A DNA stretch of 64,000 bases from an uncultured Eubacteriales bacterium (GTDB lineage: Bacteria; Bacillota; Clostridia; Lachnospirales; Bianqueaceae). The translations under genes were made by a program, and so were the position numbers. Below the pieces are notes generated by a model. It was not told the DNA's origin. It saw only the letters and a list, made by a program, of their open reading frames with translations, and ran no database searches. How positions within the stretch are numbered: position 1 is the first letter of the stretch; the number at the start of each line of letters is the position of its first letter. The stretch lies in contig OMYN01000003.1 in the NCBI GenBank assembly GCA_900315265.1, positions 62,001 to 126,000 of the forward strand, in the 5' to 3' direction. Shown here piece by piece: positions 3,959 through 46,353 of this stretch.

Positions 3959-5911
<1,953 letters not shown>

Positions 5912-34547: not shown

Positions 34548-35384
34548 TTACATGACAAGTCCCGCAATAATCGTTATCAGTCCTGCTGCTAAGCAGTAAT
34601 AGCCGAAATAATGGAACTTATGGCTGATCACCATCCTGCGCAGCCATTTAAGGGCAAAGTACCCGGACAGGCCTGCAACGATCATGCCAATGAAATAGGG
34701 TCCGAAATTAGCCGCATCTTTTGCTGTAATATTGAACAATTCCAGAAGAGCGGCCCCGATAATGGCAGGAATAGACATCAGGAAAGAAAAACGAAAGGCA
34801 AAATCCTTATCCAGTCCGCAGAACTCTCCCGCTACGACCGTCGATCCGGACCGGCTTATACCGGGGACGGTGGCGATACCCTGGACGATGCCGATGAAGA
34901 TCCCGTCATACCACTTCATTTCTCTTCCTGTTTTGCGTCCGTCCGGGATCTTTTTAGACAGCAGAAGGAGCGCAGACGTGATCAGAAGGGAAATGCCGAC
35001 GGCAACGAGTGAGCTTAAAAACAGGTCTTCAAGGAATTTTTTAACAATCAGGCCGATCAGAGCCGTAGGAATACTGGCTGCGATGACCATCAGACACATC
35101 TTGCGTTCCAGGTACATCCGGATCGGTTCTCTATTCCGAAGCCACCGGAAGCATGCCGCGATCAGGCGCACCAGTTCCACGAAAAAGCTTTTCACATCTT
35201 TCCAGAAGACCACAAAAACAGCCGCCAGCGTACCTACATGCAGTAAAACATCAAAGAAGGCGGAAGTCTCGACATTGGTCTTTAAAAGGTGGCTGAAGAT
35301 GACCAGATGACCGGAACTGGAAACCGGCAGGAACTCAGTCAGCCCTTGGATCAATCCCAACAGGATAGCTTTGAATATATTCAT
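34548..35384 (-). CDS. uppP: Undecaprenyl-diphosphatase UppP (BacA)
   Basis: Integral membrane phosphatase that recycles undecaprenyl pyrophosphate for peptidoglycan synthesis; extra copies give bacitracin resistance. The 278 residues form about eight hydrophobic helices. Family motifs are GLIQGLTEFLPVSSSGHLV near the N-terminus and TVPGISRSGSTVVAGEFCG, which hold the catalytic residues. The gene has its own promoter and a structured leader, and may be the first gene of the long unit reaching to recA. Confidence 0.97.
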   Translation of the reverse strand: MNIFKAILLGLIQGLTEFLPVSSSGHLVIFSHLLKTNVETSAFFDVLLHVGTLAAVFVVFWKDVKSFFVELVRLIAACFRWLRNREPIRMYLERKMCLMVIAASIPTALIGLIVKKFLEDLFLSSLVAVGISLLITSALLLLSKKIPDGRKTGREMKWYDGIFIGIVQGIATVPGISRSGSTVVAGEFCGLDKDFAFRFSFLMSIPAIIGAALLELFNITAKDAANFGPYFIGMIVAGLSGYFALKWLRRMVISHKFHYFGYYCLAAGLITIIAGLVM

Positions 35385-35586: not shown

Positions 35587-35621
35587 GCAAAAAAGCTGGC
35601 ATTGATACCATGCCGGCTTTT
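35587..35621 (-). terminator. Terminator of the vWA-XpaC-SBP-TelA operon
   Basis: AAAAGCCGGCAT pairs with ATGCCAGCTTTT (one mismatch), followed by a U-run on the minus strand, 11 bp after the telA stop. Confidence 0.85.
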
Positions 35622-35632
35622 TCTCAAAAAAA

Positions 35633-36787
35633 TTACTGAGCACTGACTTCCTTATTGGCTGTGTTCTGAAGAAGTGCGCCTTTAAGCTGACTTTCGATCT
35701 GAACCAGTTCCTTTTCCGCACTGACGCGGGCCTGATGACCTTCCTGCTGGATACGGATACTGTCATTGATAGTCGCAATCAGCTCATCGTTTACCTTTTT
35801 CAAGGTCTCTATATCTGCCAGGCCTCTTTCGGATTCCTTCATGGTCTCGACGGTATTCTGGTGCAGCATCTGCGAATTTGCCTCCAGCAGCTTGTTGGTT
35901 GTCTCGGTGATCTGCTGTTGATTCTTCAGAACTTTTTCCTGCCTTTCCAGTCCGATAGCCAGAACGATCTGATTTTTCCACAGAGGGATCGTCTGCAGGA
36001 TGGCTGTCTGTATCTTATCTACCAGAAGACGGTCATTGTTCTGGATCAGGCGGATCTGAGGAGCCGTCTGCATGGCGATCGTCTTAGAGATCTTCATATC
36101 ATGGATCTTTTTCTCAAAGCGATTTACGTTCTCCTCGTAATCTTTGACTACCTGCGCGCTCATGGGGTCGCCTTTTGCTTCCGCTTCTTCACGCAGCCTT
36201 GGCAATGTATTGGTCCGGATATCGGTTATCTCTTCTTCTCCGGCCTTGATATAGACCTGCAGATTGCGGAAATGGTCGATATTCATATCATACATGGTAT
36301 CGAACATGGTAATATCCCGTATCATACTCATACGGTCTTTTTCCAGTTCATTGCTGATCCGGTCTACCTGCACTTCGACCGTCTCATAGCGCTGCGCGAA
36401 CTTGTGCAGGGAGTGCAGTAATGATCCTATGATCGGGATCTTGTCCGCATTCAACAGATCATCGACATGCATAGAACGGACCTGATCGGACAAGTCAGCC
36501 AGAAGCTGACCGGTCCTTCCGCTGTCTTTGACCTGGACCTTCTGCAAAATCGTATCGGAGAAATTCTGAATATCCCGCTGGGCACCGATCCCGTATTGAA
36601 CCAATACGTTGGAATCCGTTAGATCGATCTCTTTCCGGATCTGAGCTACCTTTGCCTCCTGCTCCGGTGTCAGATTTTCGACCTGTGTCTCAACTGCTAA
36701 GGCCGTCTGCTGCCGGACCTGTGCCGTTGTGTTATCCTGCTTAGCATCTTTCTTTTCAAGCAGTGATTCCAAGGTTACATCACTCAT
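35633..36787 (-). CDS. TelA/YaaN-family protein (toxic anion resistance family)
   Basis: A cytoplasmic, almost wholly helical protein of 384 aa with long coiled-coil segments. It fits the TelA family: an N-terminal DVTLESLL region, the central MSMIRDITMFDTMYDMNIDH and IQTAILQTIPLWKNQIVLAIG, then KVLKNQQQITETTNKLL, the most conserved family block. Family members are named for tellurite resistance (KlaB/TelA) but their biochemical role is unclear; B. subtilis YaaN is encoded next to XpaC. The start at 36787 has AAAGGA 7 bp upstream. It is the last gene of a four-gene operon with an XpaC protein and two solute-binding-like proteins. A specific tellurite role is not supported here. Confidence 0.9.
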   Translation of the reverse strand: MSDVTLESLLEKKDAKQDNTTAQVRQQTALAVETQVENLTPEQEAKVAQIRKEIDLTDSNVLVQYGIGAQRDIQNFSDTILQKVQVKDSGRTGQLLADLSDQVRSMHVDDLLNADKIPIIGSLLHSLHKFAQRYETVEVQVDRISNELEKDRMSMIRDITMFDTMYDMNIDHFRNLQVYIKAGEEEITDIRTNTLPRLREEAEAKGDPMSAQVVKDYEENVNRFEKKIHDMKISKTIAMQTAPQIRLIQNNDRLLVDKIQTAILQTIPLWKNQIVLAIGLERQEKVLKNQQQITETTNKLLEANSQMLHQNTVETMKESERGLADIETLKKVNDELIATINDSIRIQQEGHQARVSAEKELVQIESQLKGALLQNTANKEVSAQ

Positions 36788-36816
36788 TTTCATTTCCTTT
36801 CCTATTCCTGGATTTT

Positions 36817-37875
36817 TTATTGTTCCGATAAGGCGTCGATGATCTTTTTCATGGTCTTGTAATTAGGCATCTGAACGACCTGATCCACCGTCGGCTCCAG
36901 ACCGATGCCCTGAAAAACATCCAGGTCTTCGCTGACCCCTGCCATACCTGTTCGAAAACCATGCTTTTGCCAGGCGATCTTCTGGATCTCTTCGTCCTCC
37001 AGGGCATCGATAGCGGCGGAGGCCTGCTCGTCCAAAGCGATCATCACGTGTGAAGACCATACTGTGGGAGTCGGATACAGCATGATGATATCGTCTTTGA
37101 TCTTCTCCCAGGTATCCGGATGCTGGGCCGTAAATTCCAGCAGCTGACTTTCATAACCGACGGCCAGCGGTTTGGATCCCATTCCCATTTTCAGAAATTC
37201 ATTGAAGATATCCGCTGATGAAGATTCCATATAACCGGACTTTTCGAAAATTTCTTTGATTTCTTCCAGGTACGGCTGGACCGTAGTCTCTGTCGCTACC
37301 CCTCCTGTCAGTGTATTGGCCAAAAGTCCGGCGTACATATTGCCTGAATTTGACTTGGTCGGATCTGTTGAGCTGATCGTTATATTGCCGTACAAGTCCA
37401 GACCGATCGATTTCCAGCTGGTACCGTCTTCTACCATACCGATCAGTCCCTTCAGATCAACAGAGTAAACACCGTCCTTCTGACTGACGATTCCCACTTT
37501 TTCCAATGCCCGGGCTATTTCTTTATGGGTATAGATCACGATGGGGGTACTGAAAATGATATCGCTTCTTACCGGTTTTCCTACTTCCGATTTATACAGC
37601 TCCAGGGCCGTCTGACTGGAAGGCCACAGATAATCTCTGCCTTCTTTATCGGCTGTGACCATGCCCAAAGAGCCTGCTTTGGAATAATCAAGGGACAGGC
37701 CGTATTTTTTTCTGAGGACCTTCTGCACATCTTCATCTTCCAGAAATCCGATCTTTTCGCCTCCGACATATCCACTAAGCTCGGTCACGGCTGTACGTGT
37801 CTTGAGTACGCTGGCACCGATCGCAGTCAGGATAACGGCCGCGACAATGATCAGACCCATTAATTTCTTTTTCAC
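36817..37875 (-). CDS. Membrane-anchored solute-binding-like protein, paralogue of the vWA lipoprotein's sensor domain
   Basis: 352 aa. The N-terminal hydrophobic segment (residues ~5-25, LMGLIIVAAVILTAIGASVL) is a signal anchor or signal peptide without a lipobox cysteine. The rest is a type 2 periplasmic-binding-protein-like fold. Blocks YLWPSSQ, STPIVIYTHKEIA, TDPTKSNSGNMYAGLL and LYPTP match, in the same order, YDAVWPASS, INPVVFGIRKSLA, TSATQSNSGASAYLGFI and VYPTD in the lipoprotein at 38547-40181. The two are therefore clear paralogues. The start is GTG at 37875, 4 bp after the xpaC-like stop. No ABC permease or ATPase gene is nearby, so it is probably a sensor or envelope component rather than a transporter part. 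Confidence 0.82.
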   Translation of the reverse strand: MKKKLMGLIIVAAVILTAIGASVLKTRTAVTELSGYVGGEKIGFLEDEDVQKVLRKKYGLSLDYSKAGSLGMVTADKEGRDYLWPSSQTALELYKSEVGKPVRSDIIFSTPIVIYTHKEIARALEKVGIVSQKDGVYSVDLKGLIGMVEDGTSWKSIGLDLYGNITISSTDPTKSNSGNMYAGLLANTLTGGVATETTVQPYLEEIKEIFEKSGYMESSSADIFNEFLKMGMGSKPLAVGYESQLLEFTAQHPDTWEKIKDDIIMLYPTPTVWSSHVMIALDEQASAAIDALEDEEIQKIAWQKHGFRTGMAGVSEDLDVFQGIGLEPTVDQVVQMPNYKTMKKIIDALSEQ

Positions 37876-37879
37876 AGAT

Positions 37880-38518
37880 CTATAGGTCTCCTTCCATCTT
37901 CATGGTCTCCTGCAGTACTTTGATATCCGTCTCGATTTCCATCAGCTCTCCGGCGGTCAAACGCTTCAGCTGCTTATCAAAGGCGGTATCAAGGGCAGCC
38001 AAAGCGTCTTCTGTCTGTGCAGCTACCCGGCCTGCCTGTCCCGAATGCTGCAGATCGATATATTTCCGGACCAGCTTCTCCGCCATATCCAGGTAATAGT
38101 CTGCGAAGCGGTGGGCGTCTGAGATCTTTTCCGGATGGGCCTTCAGATAGTCCAGGATCTCTCCTCCCGTAAGGATCAGGCCCTCCACGTTTTTATGAGC
38201 TTTCTCTGACTCAATGGCCGGCAGATTCTTTTTCAAAGACTTAAGGTCGGCCTTTGCTTCTTCCATCAGGACCAGCGAATTTTCTCCCCCTTTAAGGGCT
38301 TCCACCTTGACACGGCCGATCCTGGGAGACGGTTTCAGCAAAAATGTTAAGCCGATGTAAAGGGCAGCTGCCAAAAGACCGCTGATCCATCCTTCCAGGG
38401 ACAGTCCCCTAAAAAGGAAAAAGAAAAATGCGATCGAGATAATCACGGACAGGGCGTATGTCAGAAATTCTTTTGCCTTATTCACCTTGATCAGTTCCTT
38501 CTGTGTGAAATAGTCCAA
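37880..38518 (-). CDS. XpaC-family membrane protein
   Basis: A 212-aa protein with two adjacent transmembrane segments (about residues 20-38 and 43-61) followed by a helical cytoplasmic part (KADLKSLKKNLPAIESEKAH, DYYLDMAEKLVRKYIDLQ). This is the layout of the XpaC family, named for 5-bromo-4-chloroindolyl phosphate hydrolysis, a name with little mechanistic support. The longest frame starts with TTG at 38518 with a poor ribosome binding site. A GTG at 38485 preceded by AAGGA is an alternative that would shorten it by 11 residues. XpaC next to TelA is a known Firmicutes pair (xpaC-yaaN in B. subtilis). Confidence 0.85.
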   Translation of the reverse strand: MDYFTQKELIKVNKAKEFLTYALSVIISIAFFFFLFRGLSLEGWISGLLAAALYIGLTFLLKPSPRIGRVKVEALKGGENSLVLMEEAKADLKSLKKNLPAIESEKAHKNVEGLILTGGEILDYLKAHPEKISDAHRFADYYLDMAEKLVRKYIDLQHSGQAGRVAAQTEDALAALDTAFDKQLKRLTAGELMEIETDIKVLQETMKMEGDL

Positions 38519-38546
38519 TCAGCTTTAGATACGGACTTTGCTGCAA

Positions 38547-40181
38547 TCAGTTATAACCTCTGACCTGACGGAAGGCACCTGTAAGGTCGTTTCGCCCGTC
38601 AAAGACACGGGCATTGGTCAGTTCAGCCAACTGGTCGAGCTGTTTAGGGTCTGCATCGCCGTACATGATGGAAAAAACAGGGACCGTATCGCGATCCGCC
38701 CGGTACGTTTCTGAAAAATCTCTAAAGCCGTTTTGAGAAGCGCCGTCCGTCATCACAATGACAGCCGGTGTGTACTGAGATAAATCATAGCTGCTCATCT
38801 GTTTGATGCCCTCTGTAATAGCGGCATACATGTCGGTCCCCCCGTTGGTCTCCAAGTTATCGATCTTATCGTATAAAGCCTCCAGGTCCGCTCCGTTTCC
38901 TTCCGCCTTCCAGACGTCCATTACATCGCTGCTGAAAGGGATCACGATCGTAACGTCCCTCTCAGATGCCTGCAGGAAGTTTTCCCGGGCAATTTTCTGG
39001 ATCAGCAGCTGCTGCATGGCTGCTTTCAGCTGCTGGCTGCCCTCCCCGTACATACTGCCGGAAAAGTCCAGGCAGTAAACGGAAAGAGAAGGTTTTCTCA
39101 GTTCCGACTGATAAAGGTTCAGCGCTTCGGTCACGACGCCGGTATCCGGCATCTTGATGCTGGAAAGCACTTTATCCGGCTGAAGGCCCCAGTCTGAACG
39201 GAAAACGTCCTTGTTATCTTCATTGATCCCTACATAAGCACTGCGCCGTCCGGTCTTCTGGATCTGATCCTGAGCGTCATCGGATAAAAGATACTGCTGA
39301 AAATCCAAAAAGATCTTCTCTTCTTTATCATTTCCCCGGTCGACATAGGCAAGAGGAGAATCCACCACTGCCAGGCCGTCCGTAGGATAAACGACATACA
39401 GCGGCTCTTTTCCCTCTTTTTCCAGTTCCTTATTGGCCGCGATCATCAGACACTCGTAATTGACCATGGCGTCGTAATCACCTGCCACGAACATATCTTT
39501 AAGCCAGTCTGAACTGCCGGATGAACGGTCGATGCCGGATAGAAGGTCGGTCAGTTTCTGACGGACTTCTTCGTTTTCCAGGTCTTTTTGACTGATCACG
39601 TCCGGGCTCCCCGCTAAGGCGCTGATAAAGCCAAGATAAGCGCTGGCCCCGGAGTTGGACTGGGTCGCGCTGGTCATGCAGAAAGTCAGCTTGCCTGCCA
39701 TGATCGCATCGAGAATGTCCGAGATCGAAACATCTTTGCCGACAAATCCAAGGTCCTTAGCCAGTGATTTACGGATGCCGAAAACGACCGGATTAATAGA
39801 TATGGATTCGGCATGCTTGATCCGATGCATGGTATCGCCGGCATTCATCCAGATGCTGCTGGCAGGCCACACCGCGTCATAATCAAAGTCCTCCTGCTGA
39901 AGGGCCCTCATAATGTCCAGCGACCCTTTATAAGTCATGACGATGGTAAGGCCGTGCTTATCGGCATATTTTTCCAAGATCGATTCCAATTCTTTATTTT
40001 CAGAGCCGGACAGGATCCTCAGCGTCCTGCTGCCGCTGCCGAGAGTGCTGGTATTTGGGTCACTTTTTGATTCTTTATTCTGGATCCCGCATCCGCTGAG
40101 AGATAAACTTCCGATCACCAGGACCATGACCAGAAAAACAGCAATCAGCCGTCCGGATCTTTTTTCTGCCTTTTTTATCAT
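38547..40181 (-). CDS. Lipoprotein with solute-binding-like domain fused to a von Willebrand A domain
   Basis: 544 aa. The N-terminal signal has a lipobox LSGC with Cys31, so it should be lipid-anchored outside the membrane. Residues ~50-350 are a type 2 solute-binding-like domain (YDAVWPASS, SATQSNSGASAY, YPTDGL). Residues ~365-540 are a vWA domain with an intact MIDAS metal site: Asp372-x-Ser374-x-Ser376 (YCLDFSGSM), Thr449 in NGGTD and Asp479 in MTDG. The vWA part probably makes a metal-dependent contact with a protein partner while the first domain binds a ligand. It is the first gene of the operon, with an AAGGGGGGG ribosome binding site. The operon lies between the pnp terminator and its own terminator. 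Confidence 0.88.
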   Translation of the reverse strand: MIKKAEKRSGRLIAVFLVMVLVIGSLSLSGCGIQNKESKSDPNTSTLGSGSRTLRILSGSENKELESILEKYADKHGLTIVMTYKGSLDIMRALQQEDFDYDAVWPASSIWMNAGDTMHRIKHAESISINPVVFGIRKSLAKDLGFVGKDVSISDILDAIMAGKLTFCMTSATQSNSGASAYLGFISALAGSPDVISQKDLENEEVRQKLTDLLSGIDRSSGSSDWLKDMFVAGDYDAMVNYECLMIAANKELEKEGKEPLYVVYPTDGLAVVDSPLAYVDRGNDKEEKIFLDFQQYLLSDDAQDQIQKTGRRSAYVGINEDNKDVFRSDWGLQPDKVLSSIKMPDTGVVTEALNLYQSELRKPSLSVYCLDFSGSMYGEGSQQLKAAMQQLLIQKIARENFLQASERDVTIVIPFSSDVMDVWKAEGNGADLEALYDKIDNLETNGGTDMYAAITEGIKQMSSYDLSQYTPAVIVMTDGASQNGFRDFSETYRADRDTVPVFSIMYGDADPKQLDQLAELTNARVFDGRNDLTGAFRQVRGYN

Positions 40182-40220: not shown

Positions 40221-40278
40221 ACGAAATCATGATACCGTACCATATTCAAATCAGTGTCAGGGGCATGTAAATTCAGCG

Positions 40279-40314
40279 TAAAAAAAGCAGGCGGCTATTC
40301 TGCCACCTGCTTTT
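40279..40314 (-). terminator. Intrinsic terminator of pnp
   Basis: A 13-bp stem, AAAAGCAGGTGGC / GCCGCCTGCTTTT, with a 6-nt loop and a U-tract on the minus strand, about 31 bp after the pnp stop. Confidence 0.92.
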
Positions 40315-40345: not shown

Positions 40346-42562
40346 TCATTCATCATCGCCGCGGTCATTGCGTTCCATACGATAGCTGTGATGAGGAGCG
40401 CTGCTGCGGCGGTCGCGGCTGAAACCGCCCTGGCGCTTTTCTCCGCCTTCCGGAGGAGGAAGAAGAGCCTTGCGGGAAACTTTTACCTTACCCTTGTCGT
40501 CGATGCCGATGACTTTGACCATGACCTCATCGCCAAGATGCAGAACATCCTCAACATTCTTGATATACTCGTAAGAGATCTCGGTCACGTGCAAAAGAGC
40601 GTCTTTGCCCGGCAGGAGCTGGACAAAGGCTCCGTACTTTTCAAGACGTACTACCTTAGCGTTATAGATCTCGCCTACTTCGATCTCCTTGGCGATGGAC
40701 TCAATGGTCTTGATCGCTTTGTTGATCATTTCTTCATCGGTACCGAGAACATATACGCTGCCGTCCTCTTCGATATCGATCTGAACGCCGGTATCTTCGA
40801 TGATCTTATTGATGGTCTTACCCTTAGGACCTACCACCTCACCGATCTTGGAAACGGAGATCTTAGTGGAGAAGATCTTAGGAGCATAAGGAGACAGATG
40901 CTCACGGGGAGCGGAAATAGCCTTGGCCATAACTTCGTCAAGGATATAGTCACGGGCTTCATGAGTGCGGCGGATAGCGCCTTCGATCACGGCCCGGGTC
41001 AGTCCGTGGACTTTGATATCCATCTGGATAGCGGTTATGCCCTTATGAGTACCGGCAACCTTGAAATCCATATCTCCGAAGAAGTCCTCAAGTCCCTGGA
41101 TATCCGTCAGCAGGACGAAGTCATCATCGGTATCCCCGGTGATCAAACCGCAGGAAATACCGGCTACCGGAGCCTTGATCGGGACACCGGCTGCCATCAG
41201 GGCCATGGAACTTGCGCAGATGGAAGCCTGAGAAGTAGAACCGTTGGAACTTAATACTTCCGATACAGCACGAATAGCGTAAGGGAACTCTTCCTCGGAA
41301 GGAAGTACCGGGACCAGAGCACGCTCAGCCAGAGCACCGTGACCGATCTCACGGCGTCCGGGCCCGCGGCTGGGTTTGGTCTCACCGGTAGAATAAGACG
41401 GCATGTTGTACTGATGGATATACCGCTTGGTCTGTTCGTTATCGTCCAAAGAATCCAGGATCTGACGATCCGACAGGGCGCCAAGGGTCACAACGTCCAG
41501 GACCTGAGTCTGGCCGCGGCTGAACAAAGCACTGCCATGTACGCGGGGCAGCAGATCAACCTCGGCATGAAGAGGACGGATCTCGGTCATCTTACGGCCG
41601 TCGGGACGTTTGCCGTCGACTTTTATCATCTTGCGGACGGTCTTCTTCTGATACTGGTAGACACCTTCGTCGACATAGGGGAGCATGGTCTCCTGCTCTT
41701 CTTCCGGCAGGGTCGCAATATAAGCTTTCAGATCTTCCGTAACCTTGGCGACACGCTGGTCGCGCACCATTTTGTCGTCTGTGAAAACGACCTCTTCCAT
41801 CTGCTCAGGCGGGCATACCTGCTTTAAAGCATCAAAAACAGCTTCCGGAACGACCTGTTCCTGATAAGACATCTTAGGTTTACCGACAGCCTTTACGATC
41901 TCATTGATCCAGGCAACGATCTTCTGGTTGGTTTCATGGGCCAGGAAAATAGCCTCGATCATCTTATCGTCCGAAACTTCGTTGGCGCCGGCTTCGATCA
42001 TAACGACCTTATCAGCGGTGGACGCTACCGTAAGATCCAGATCGGATACCTTGCGCTGTTCACTGTTGGGGTTGATGATCAGCTGACCGTCGACCAGACC
42101 GACAGCGACCGCAGCGATGGGGCCGTCAAAGGGAATATCGGAAATCGATACGGCAATGGAAGAACCCAGCATAGCCAGCTTCTCAGGCTGGCAATCCTGG
42201 TCGACACTTAAAACGGTGTTGACGATGGACACGTCATTGCGCATATCTTTGGGGAATAAGGGGCGCATGGGGCGGTCGATGCAGCGGCTGGTCAGCGTCG
42301 CATTCTCGCTGGGACGCCCTTCCCTTTTTAAGAAACTTCCGGGGATCTTTCCCACGGAATACATTTTTTCTTCATAATCAACGCTCAGGGGGAAGAAATC
42401 GACTCCCTCTCTGGGCTCTTTGGAAGCAGTAGCCGTTGATAAAACGGTAGTATCGCCGTAAGTCATCCATACGGCGCCGTTGGCCTGCTCCGCGACTTTG
42501 CCGACCTGGGCCGTCAACTTATGGCCTGCCAGCTCCATCTCAAAGGTCTGAACCTGTGACAT
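40346..42562 (-). CDS. pnp: Polyribonucleotide nucleotidyltransferase (PNPase)
   Basis: Phosphorolytic 3'-5' exoribonuclease of the RNA degradation machinery. The 738 residues hold two RNase PH domains (GREGVDFFPLSVDYEEKMYSVGKIPGSF; second domain with LPRVHGSALFSRGQTQ) and an alpha-helical linker. The KH domain has IGEVVGPKGKTINKI, and the S1 domain is near the end (YGAFVQLLPGKDALLHV). The C-terminal tail is Arg/Gly/Ser-rich. AGGAGG lies 8 bp upstream of the ATG. It follows rpsO, the standard gene order, with a structured leader between them. Confidence 0.98.
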   Translation of the reverse strand: MSQVQTFEMELAGHKLTAQVGKVAEQANGAVWMTYGDTTVLSTATASKEPREGVDFFPLSVDYEEKMYSVGKIPGSFLKREGRPSENATLTSRCIDRPMRPLFPKDMRNDVSIVNTVLSVDQDCQPEKLAMLGSSIAVSISDIPFDGPIAAVAVGLVDGQLIINPNSEQRKVSDLDLTVASTADKVVMIEAGANEVSDDKMIEAIFLAHETNQKIVAWINEIVKAVGKPKMSYQEQVVPEAVFDALKQVCPPEQMEEVVFTDDKMVRDQRVAKVTEDLKAYIATLPEEEQETMLPYVDEGVYQYQKKTVRKMIKVDGKRPDGRKMTEIRPLHAEVDLLPRVHGSALFSRGQTQVLDVVTLGALSDRQILDSLDDNEQTKRYIHQYNMPSYSTGETKPSRGPGRREIGHGALAERALVPVLPSEEEFPYAIRAVSEVLSSNGSTSQASICASSMALMAAGVPIKAPVAGISCGLITGDTDDDFVLLTDIQGLEDFFGDMDFKVAGTHKGITAIQMDIKVHGLTRAVIEGAIRRTHEARDYILDEVMAKAISAPREHLSPYAPKIFSTKISVSKIGEVVGPKGKTINKIIEDTGVQIDIEEDGSVYVLGTDEEMINKAIKTIESIAKEIEVGEIYNAKVVRLEKYGAFVQLLPGKDALLHVTEISYEYIKNVEDVLHLGDEVMVKVIGIDDKGKVKVSRKALLPPPEGGEKRQGGFSRDRRSSAPHHSYRMERNDRGDDE

Positions 42563-44331: not shown

Positions 44332-46290
44332 TCAGATCTCTGACATTCCCTCAGAATCTGTTCCTCCTTCCTCGGTCGTCTCGACCAGATCCTGGGCTTC
44401 CAGATTTAGCCGGCCGGCCTCAGGAATCTGTCCTACCACGTTGTTGATCAGCCAATCCATGGTCACGATGCGGCCTGTGGGCATGTAGCCGTCCTCTTCC
44501 GACCTAAGGGTCCCCTGCTGGTCATAGATGAAACCGTCGAAGACATGGCAGAAGTCATGGATGATGGACCGTTTGTAGTAGCGCATCAGCTGCGTTACTC
44601 CTTCCGGCAGCCTGCTGGAATATACCAGATCGATGACCCCTGCCGACAGGCCCCACCAGTAATTGATAGCCTTGGTCTGATCCCTGTCAAGGTCGCTCCA
44701 GGAGCCGGACAGGATACTGCTGAGGATCTTTTCGTAAAAAATCCCCCAGTTCCAGAAAGGCATAGCCAGCTCTTTGCGTTCCCGGTCCCTGACCTGGTAA
44801 AGGCCGAAACGCCGATCCTTCCTGCCGGGTGTGATCATGTCCTGATGAGAGACCATATCACAGTCAAGCTCTGACAGCCTGCTGTCAACATCTACCCCTT
44901 TCATGGTCGACCATATCAGAAAAACTTTGGCTCGCGGATTGACCAGCTGGACGCCCCTTGAAAAAGCATTGATCGAAGCGATCATTCCTGAGATAGGATA
45001 ATCCGCAATATAAGCAATGCGGTCATTCTGCGTCATGACGCCGGCAAGGATACCGCTTAAAAATTTAGCTTCGTACTCACGCCCGTAATAAGTGCGGATA
45101 TTGCCTACGGCCATGTTGACCGAACAGTTCAGAAATTTTACGCTGGGGAAGCGGACAGCCGCCTTGACCGTATCGTCGATCAGCTGGGGCGTGGTCGTAA
45201 AGACGACATCATTGTCCCCTGCCAGGTCGCAGATAGTCTGATAGGGCGTTTCTTTTTTATTGAAGATATTGTCCACGTCCGTGATCTTGATCTGGTCTTT
45301 GAGACTTTCTTCCACATACATACGGCCGAGTTCATGGGCATAGGTCCAGGCGCTTGTTTCCATCGTTTTACTGTGGGCAAAAGCGACCCTGAGTTTTGGT
45401 TTGGCCTGGGGAGTAATAAAGACATCCTGCAGGACCCTGACAAAGCTTCTGGGAGCCTGTTCCTTATCCGCCTGTGGTTCCAGGTGAAGGCCTACAGGGG
45501 CTTCCTCCTGCAAAAGTTCGATATTATCCCGTATTTTTTCCAGCCTTTCCCTGAGTTCCTGATCCGTACTTTCACTGATCGAAGACAGGGGATAGATCTT
45601 CAGATATTCCAAAAAGACATCCGACGGAGAGATCCCGCTTGTGGGGCCGGCTGCCTTTTTAAAAGCAGACTGTATGCGTGAATAGCAGAAATGGAATTCC
45701 TTCTGGAATTCAGAGTCCCATTCAGCTTTCGTACTGCGGCCGGTCAGTTCCAGGATACGGTCATAAGATCCCTCCCGGGTAAAATTCAGATAATTGATGC
45801 GGGCGATCTTATAAAAGCGCAGGAACTCCTGATAGATGCGGGAGGCTTTGCTTCCGTCGGGTTTGGCAATGACACGGGTCACGATGCCGCTGATCTCGAC
45901 CGCTCCGTAAAACTTAAGGACACTGACCCTCTTGTTGCCTTCGACCACATAAAAGCGGTTCATAAATTCATAGGCTTTGATAGGGTCACGGATGCCCTCC
46001 TTCAGGTGGATATCGTTCAGGTTCATCCATTTGCGGGCAAACTCGGAACCTTCGTCAAGAAGAGGCATAAAGTTGCGGGCAAAGGCTGTGCTGCGTCCGA
46101 CACCGTTGGTACCGACGATCTGATCGATGGGAATGATCACCTGCCCCAGCGATACTTCCTGCTCGATCTGCAGGTTATGAGTCAGATCTTCCAATACCTG
46201 AAGATAAGGGTAGACACCCTTGGCCAAATCCTTCTGATACTGCTCCCGGCCCAGACGCAGGGCCATTTTGTAATCGCCTGACGTAGACAT
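44332..46290 (-). CDS. Cytoplasmic ParB-like / BMP (PnrA-like) fusion protein
   Basis: 652 aa without signal peptide or transmembrane segment. About residues 45-135 resemble a ParB/sulfiredoxin-type domain: VIIPIDQIVGT, GRSTAFARNFMPLL and the hallmark-like VVEGNKRVSVLK. Residues ~295-580 match the BMP/PnrA purine-nucleoside binding fold (KLRVAFAHSKTMETSAWTYAHELG, DDTVKAAVRFPSVKFLNCS, LSGILAGVMTQNDRIAYIAD), which is normally an extracellular lipoprotein. Such proteins are usually annotated as an ABC substrate-binding protein, which does not fit a cytoplasmic protein. I infer a nucleoside-sensing regulator, unproven. The start is the ATG at 46290 with AAGGAG 5 bp upstream. It is divergent from clpE and followed by dinB. 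Confidence 0.8.
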   Translation of the reverse strand: MSTSGDYKMALRLGREQYQKDLAKGVYPYLQVLEDLTHNLQIEQEVSLGQVIIPIDQIVGTNGVGRSTAFARNFMPLLDEGSEFARKWMNLNDIHLKEGIRDPIKAYEFMNRFYVVEGNKRVSVLKFYGAVEISGIVTRVIAKPDGSKASRIYQEFLRFYKIARINYLNFTREGSYDRILELTGRSTKAEWDSEFQKEFHFCYSRIQSAFKKAAGPTSGISPSDVFLEYLKIYPLSSISESTDQELRERLEKIRDNIELLQEEAPVGLHLEPQADKEQAPRSFVRVLQDVFITPQAKPKLRVAFAHSKTMETSAWTYAHELGRMYVEESLKDQIKITDVDNIFNKKETPYQTICDLAGDNDVVFTTTPQLIDDTVKAAVRFPSVKFLNCSVNMAVGNIRTYYGREYEAKFLSGILAGVMTQNDRIAYIADYPISGMIASINAFSRGVQLVNPRAKVFLIWSTMKGVDVDSRLSELDCDMVSHQDMITPGRKDRRFGLYQVRDRERKELAMPFWNWGIFYEKILSSILSGSWSDLDRDQTKAINYWWGLSAGVIDLVYSSRLPEGVTQLMRYYKRSIIHDFCHVFDGFIYDQQGTLRSEEDGYMPTGRIVTMDWLINNVVGQIPEAGRLNLEAQDLVETTEEGGTDSEGMSEI

Positions 46291-46353
46291 AAGCACTCCT
46301 TAGACTTAATAAGACCTTTCCTACTGCTGCCAATAGTTTGGAAGTTAATAGTT

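Follow-up and report, generated by a model that had tools for sequence, protein, structure and literature searches.

The locus considered here lies at positions 35,633 to 40,181 of a 64,000-nucleotide stretch of contig OMYN01000003.1 from an uncultured Eubacteriales bacterium (this whole stretch being called the window) and consists of four minus-strand open reading frames (ORFs) between pnp (40346-42562), whose terminator is visible just upstream of gene 1, and uppP/bacA (34548-35384) on the far side. Gene 1 (38547..40181) encodes a lipoprotein with a type-2 periplasmic binding domain and a VWA domain, gene 2 (37880..38518) an XpaC family protein (PF10112) with a two-helix N-terminal hairpin and a helical cytoplasmic part, gene 3 (36817..37875) a signal-anchored type-2 periplasmic binding protein and gene 4 (35633..36793) a cytoplasmic TelA protein (PF05816) of an operon-specific branch of the family. 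The terminator of the operon was found in the sequence at 35598..35614, on the same strand. The order and coordinates of the four genes, the lipobox, the intact metal-ion-dependent adhesion site (MIDAS) and both terminators are all as described in an earlier note on this DNA, which had also recorded the absence of any ATP-binding cassette (ABC) permease or ATPase nearby; none was present among the flanking genes examined in the window. No structured RNA was matched in the region with Rfam.

Pfam matches for gene 1 were to SBP_bac_11 (1e-18) and VWA (2e-11), with the binding domain at about residues 50-345, the VWA domain at about 365-540, a conserved C-terminus ending in GYN and a lipobox of LSLSGC. 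The MIDAS motif (DxSxS...T...D) of the VWA domain is formed by D372, S374, S376, T449 and D479, all invariant in 35 relatives, and the assignment of this domain to the metal-binding-competent MIDAS type is supported. Gene 2 matched PF10112 (XpaC/'Halogen_Hydrol') at 4e-23 and 82.9 bits (curated cut-off of 29.8), and its start is probably the GTG at 38485, which follows an AAGGA, and not the TTG at 38518, judging from the starts of its relatives. For gene 4 the match to TelA covered residues 49-375 at 6e-106 and 354.8 bits (cut-off of 30). Two hydrophobic helices are present in gene 2, one N-terminal anchor in gene 3 and none in gene 4.

Gene 3, for which no significant Pfam match was obtained, had been called a binding protein by guess, and this guess was confirmed by its AlphaFold2 model (predicted local distance difference test score of 90), which displays a type-2 binding-protein fold, by Foldseek and by profile-profile homology to gene 1. 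In Foldseek, the gene 1 and gene 3 models were both matched with a probability of 1.00 to FbpA and to sulfate- and molybdate-binding proteins, and the fold neighbours of both include sulfate-, molybdate-, ferric-ion- and sugar-phosphate-binding proteins. The profile of gene 3 aligned with that of the gene 1 binding half over 323 columns (probability 96%, E 1e-9) and, from this comparison, gene 3 is a paralogue of that half. Several loop motifs (GS, P.SS, SNSG, YE, YP and an arginine near the domain end) are kept in both binding proteins, which therefore probably still bind something similar. A search of the PDB with the sequences of gene 3, TelA and XpaC gave no relevant relative.

In order to evaluate conservation, one genome per species was scanned, giving 458 stretches that encode gene 1 relatives, from which a set of 80 loci was retained; gut Lachnospiraceae and Oscillospiraceae account for nearly all of them. 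The order gene 1-XpaC-gene 3 is invariant in every locus with enough DNA (about 77 clostridial loci and three more distant Bacillota genomes), and TelA comes next after gene 3 in 36 of the 70 testable loci. The conservation of the four genes as neighbours, on which the earlier note had made its proposal depend, is thereby established. Median intergenic distances are -1 and -4 nt within gene 1-XpaC-gene 3 and 27 nt to TelA, with typical overlaps of 1-4 nt, and gene 1, XpaC and gene 3 are often translationally coupled. TelA is encoded in 20/20 genomes with the gene 1-XpaC-gene 3 triad that were searched whole, most of them without an adjacent TelA. Among 120 sampled genomes of one family, TelA was present in 61 and gene 1 in 8; the 8 gene 1 carriers all encode TelA, which adjoins gene 1 in 7 of them, compared to a TelA in 53/112 of the other genomes (hypergeometric p 0.0035). 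Within 7 kb of the 80 loci, no gene other than these four occurs at a fixed place; the largest flank cluster, ABC-type ATPases, is found in 11 loci at scattered distances. A consistent pairing with ABC transporter genes, which would have spoken against the earlier proposal, was thus not encountered, and an ABC importer was rejected for lack of a recurrent ABC partner in these flanks.

The operon is scarce around its present host: in the window's family, 18 other genomes were without gene 1, any resemblance being limited to a weak match with the VWA part, and among 399 genomes taken from across the phylum it was found in only 3 others. A rumen Clostridiales genome has a gene 1 product 68% identical to that of the window, its PNP being only 52% identical. 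These identities and its patchy occurrence fit a probable horizontal spread of the operon. Records under the names Ruminococcus turbiniformis, Merdivicinus, Gemmiger and Faecousia also contain near-identical operons, representing either recent transfer or binning errors. One genome (G400) has a tandem duplication of gene 1 and XpaC on contig C4 (45.2-49.2 kb), in which the second gene 1 copy, split into two frames of 402 and 142 codons, is apparently decaying.

Upstream of gene 1, an unguided dyad search over 62 non-redundant regions gave TTAC-N7-TTAC in 24/62, while in shuffled sequences the commonest dyad reached 5-7. Scored as TTTACA-N5-TTTACA, an 11-bp direct repeat, with a threshold of at least 10/12 matches, the box was present in 42/62 gene 1 upstream regions compared to 25/663 for the other genes of the same loci (Fisher p 2.5e-35). 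It was found in both host groups (Oscillospirales-like, 11/17; other, 31/45), and additional units at 11-bp steps were apparent in aligned gene 1 promoters. As an independent check, pstS genes were inspected, and the same box at the same threshold precedes pstS in 25 of 27 genomes (the window's genome and 26 carrier genomes), seven of these boxes being perfect, likewise with further units at 11-bp steps. Direct repeat units of 11 nt are the hallmark of the PHO box (PMC4415409), and at least two such units, shared with pstS in the same organisms, lie upstream of gene 1. Since the same box precedes pstS in these genomes, the operon is predicted to be a member of the Pho regulon, and this regulation is well supported by the promoter comparison. 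A sigma-W-type promoter (TGAAAC-N16-CGTA), on the other hand, occurs in none of the upstream regions.

In the window itself, pattern scoring located the box TTTACGCTGAATTTACA (TTTACG-CTGAA-TTTACA, 11/12 to TTTACA-N5-TTTACA) at 40266..40282 on the minus strand, and a third unit with 11-bp spacing, CTGACA, can be read from the sequence at 40255..40260 on the same strand. Counting both strands, the window contains only one other site at 11/12, and the box also belongs to the six exact TTTAC-N6-TTTAC sites of the 2.16-Mb genome, where the exact pattern is not enriched (6 sites versus 13 for the reversed control). Another of the six, on contig C25 (61664-61679), has the ORF of a small membrane protein on one side and, on the other, a divergent gene resembling a Na/phosphate cotransporter, possibly a second Pho target.

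The box is not shared by TelA loci at large. Canonical XpaC-TelA loci of carriers and non-carriers contained it in only 1/40 cases, and PHO-box control of TelA in general was rejected on this result. In a quick tree, for which the careful search was not finished, 33/33 operonic TelA proteins fall in one group without intruders and apart from those of canonical XpaC-TelA pairs, with a support of only 73. Genomes whose operon has no TelA of its own carry a canonical TelA, and the window's genome encodes the operonic TelA only. Another membrane partner of TelA was noticed on a Jeotgalibacillus plasmid (3836-6304), where the gene after TelA encodes an SPFH/Band_7 protein (prohibitin or flotillin-like).

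The XpaC-TelA combination had been described in the earlier note as a recurring Firmicutes pair, which is too narrow for the present system, as both binding proteins occur together with TelA in Betaproteobacteria and Actinomycetota and without it in Deinococcus. Sphaerotilus and Variovorax (Betaproteobacteria) and Nonomuraea (Actinomycetota) have the order gene 3-TelA-gene 1 followed by a protein that has a hydrophobic N-terminus and a length of about 205-226 aa, while Deinococcus has gene 3-gene 1 followed by the same kind of protein. Compared to the clostridial order gene 1-XpaC-gene 3-TelA, the pairs gene 3-TelA and gene 1-hairpin are kept and the order of the pairs is swapped. In Sphaerotilus, the homologous genes start 4 nt after the alkaline phosphatase gene phoX (phoX-gene 3-TelA-gene 1-hairpin), and a PhoB box, ATGTCATGACACTTTCAT, matching at 12/14 (0/300 shuffles), is located about 80 nt upstream of phoX. 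In Nonomuraea gerenzanensis, about six tandem GCACCGTGAGC units lie at 4422-4486 between gene 3 and a divergent secreted-protein gene, an 11-bp array that resembles a complex response-regulator operator. The gene 3-TelA-gene 1 operon of Variovorax sp. SRS16 plasmid 2 (1-15512) is flanked on one side by a flotillin/OB-fold gene pair and on the other by a Wadjet-like set (JetA, DUF4194, SbcC/MukB-like), a neighbourhood resembling a defence island.

Taken together, the conserved operon, its domain make-up, its predicted PHO-box control and the presence of TelA in all 20 triad genomes searched make it rather probable that the locus encodes a phosphate-starvation-induced, permease-free trans-membrane envelope module ending in TelA. 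Under low phosphate, a PhoB/PhoP-type regulator would occupy the 11-bp repeats in front of gene 1, switching on the lipoprotein with its MIDAS-type VWA domain, the signal-anchored binding protein and the XpaC hairpin, together with a dedicated TelA where the operon includes one, as in about half of the genomes. The ligand of the binding proteins would most likely be phosphate or else a phosphorylated compound (a phosphate ester, a phosphonate or a phosphopolymer of the envelope), and the VWA domain could contact a partner or wall polymer in a metal-dependent manner. Binding may then be reported or tethered through XpaC to a TelA coiled-coil assembly at the inner face of the membrane, in a putative four-protein complex that feeds no ABC permease and would act on the envelope. 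Simple uptake is argued against by the lack of a permease in the operon. The envelope sensing module proposed earlier is retained with respect to the conserved operon, the extracytoplasmic binding domains, the hairpin, TelA and the absence of ABC genes, its link to phosphate having been missed; as for the inducing condition, PHO-box control points to phosphate limitation instead of the cell-wall or oxyanion stress put forward at the time. A connection with phosphate also fits older facts: tellurite enters Escherichia coli mainly via the phosphate transporter PitA and inhibits phosphate uptake (PMC3501828), and the XpaC family was named for indolyl phosphate hydrolysis (Pfam description). Canonical XpaC-TelA pairs, by contrast, sit in envelope-stress regulons, so that the operon of the Clostridia resembles a general envelope module in a phosphate-dedicated form.

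Several observations weigh against this interpretation. No strong box was found in 20/62 gene 1 upstream regions, and in the window box the first repeat unit coincides in part with the T-run of the pnp terminator, which makes the window alone weak evidence for it. The structural neighbours of the binding proteins are generic type-2 binding proteins with a template modelling score of about 0.6, none of which singles out a ligand, and an adjacent TelA is absent from half of the loci. Outside Bacillota, the protein in the XpaC position of the proteobacterial, actinomycetotal and Deinococcus loci has no Pfam match and an hhalign probability of 6% to XpaC, agreeing with it only in place, size and hydrophobic N-terminus; the approximately six 11-bp repeats preceding gene 3 in Nonomuraea match the Streptomyces consensus unit only partly, and the loci of Variovorax, Deinococcus and Streptomyces gave no convincing Pho box. 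Finally, the known phenotypes of XpaC-TelA concern envelope stress and not phosphate.

This last point is the strength of an unlikely alternative in which the operon is a general envelope-stress sensor, its binding proteins detecting a cell-wall or antimicrobial signal and TelA-XpaC protecting the membrane like the canonical pair. That pair (B. subtilis xpaC-yaaN, Listeria lmo1966-1967, Lactococcus llmg_1115-1116) has the same neighbouring families, a membrane hairpin and a cytoplasmic coiled coil: xpaC-yaaN is a core sigma-W operon (PMC3498285), lmo1966-1967 belongs to the LiaR regulon with an lmo1967 mutant sensitive to nisin (PMC12791056), and llmg_1115-1116 is induced in the CesSR-related response (PMC3139573). 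The canonical pair, however, has neither of the two binding-protein genes and is under sigma-W, LiaR or CesR control, and the clostridial canonical pairs are devoid of the PHO boxes that precede the operon and belong to a separate TelA branch; the sigma-W-type pattern, moreover, is missing upstream of gene 1.

Two further explanations accept Pho control and differ in what it would serve. In an oxyanion guard, induced phosphate uptake would let in arsenate, tellurite or other mimics, which the binding proteins would capture or recognise and to which TelA would confer tolerance. The naming of TelA for toxic-anion resistance, the entry of tellurite through PitA and the SBP_bac_11 membership of gene 1 are consistent with it; yet genes for the reduction or efflux of arsenate or tellurite do not recur around the 80 loci, and anaerobic gut hosts have no evident exposure to tellurite. 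This explanation is slightly less probable still. The least probable is an auxiliary phosphate capture in which genes 1 and 3 would hand phosphate or its esters to PstCAB or another permease with TelA and XpaC as scaffolds. Two conserved binding proteins under Pho control in an operon without its own permease would suit such a role. PstS itself shares the promoter box and the extracytoplasmic type-2 fold, and PhnS and UgpB are further Pho regulon binding proteins; unlike these, the operon has no ABC permease or ATPase, and its binding proteins are fused or linked to VWA, XpaC and TelA. The VWA fusion, the gene 3 anchor and the constant XpaC/TelA linkage are foreign to binding-protein-dependent uptake, and no permease recurs nearby.

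Membership in known TelA-containing systems was also considered. Anantharaman, Iyer and Aravind (2012; known through PMC7824862) reportedly described Ter systems in which TerBCDEF/TerY occur with TelA, and these resemble the operon in having TelA and a VWA protein in a membrane-linked system; in the operon, however, the VWA domain lies outside the cytoplasm, on the same protein as a binding domain. The absence of TerC-type genes nearby, asserted earlier, extends to the whole genome assembly, in which no TerC was found; TerC, TerD and TerB are also absent from the recurrent neighbours, TerD and TerB not having been searched genome-wide. Membership in a Ter stress system was rejected for want of TerC in the genome and of any recurring Ter-type gene in the flanks. 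The KlaABC operon of IncP plasmids likewise combines TelA (KlaB), a second cytoplasmic protein and a membrane protein in three genes, but KlaA is itself a divergent TelA relative, KlaC is a multi-helix membrane protein and, with no match to the gene 1, XpaC or gene 3 profiles, this identity was rejected. KlaA of IncP pBS228 and of IncHI2A plasmids scored 40-41 bits to PF05816, above cut-off, and a Comamonas plasmid relative 22.9 bits, below it. A defence-system identity was rejected as well, PADLOC giving 0 matches for any of the four proteins and no phage-borne gene 1 homologue being found.

The architecture of gene 1 is present in NCBI records (Streptomyces, Variovorax) as 'substrate-binding and VWA domain-containing protein', an annotation for which no system, partners or regulation were found described in the open-access literature searched; nor was any description of the operon or of its Pho control found in that literature, a scope that does not include the main TelA/Ter comparative paper. 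In the operon, known families are combined in a way that is new and specifically regulated. Elsewhere in the window, a 654-aa protein (44332-46296) has a PnrA-like (Bmp) match confined to residues 302-459, the preceding 300 or so residues being without family assignment.

TelA and XpaC are widespread proteins named after accidental phenotypes and without a known mechanism, the function of TelA having been unresolved for decades. A Pho-controlled version with binding proteins of its own supplies the family with a condition, phosphate limitation, together with a likely class of ligand and a minimal partner set. A bolder and tentative possibility is that the envelope role of TelA-XpaC proteins is fundamentally related to phosphate and that the operon is a permease-free phosphate-starvation receptor, in which case tellurite resistance and indolyl phosphate hydrolysis would be side effects of altered handling of phosphate or phosphate esters. 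If the operon does act as proposed, a permease-free receptor module would be added to the phosphate-starvation response of gut Clostridia.

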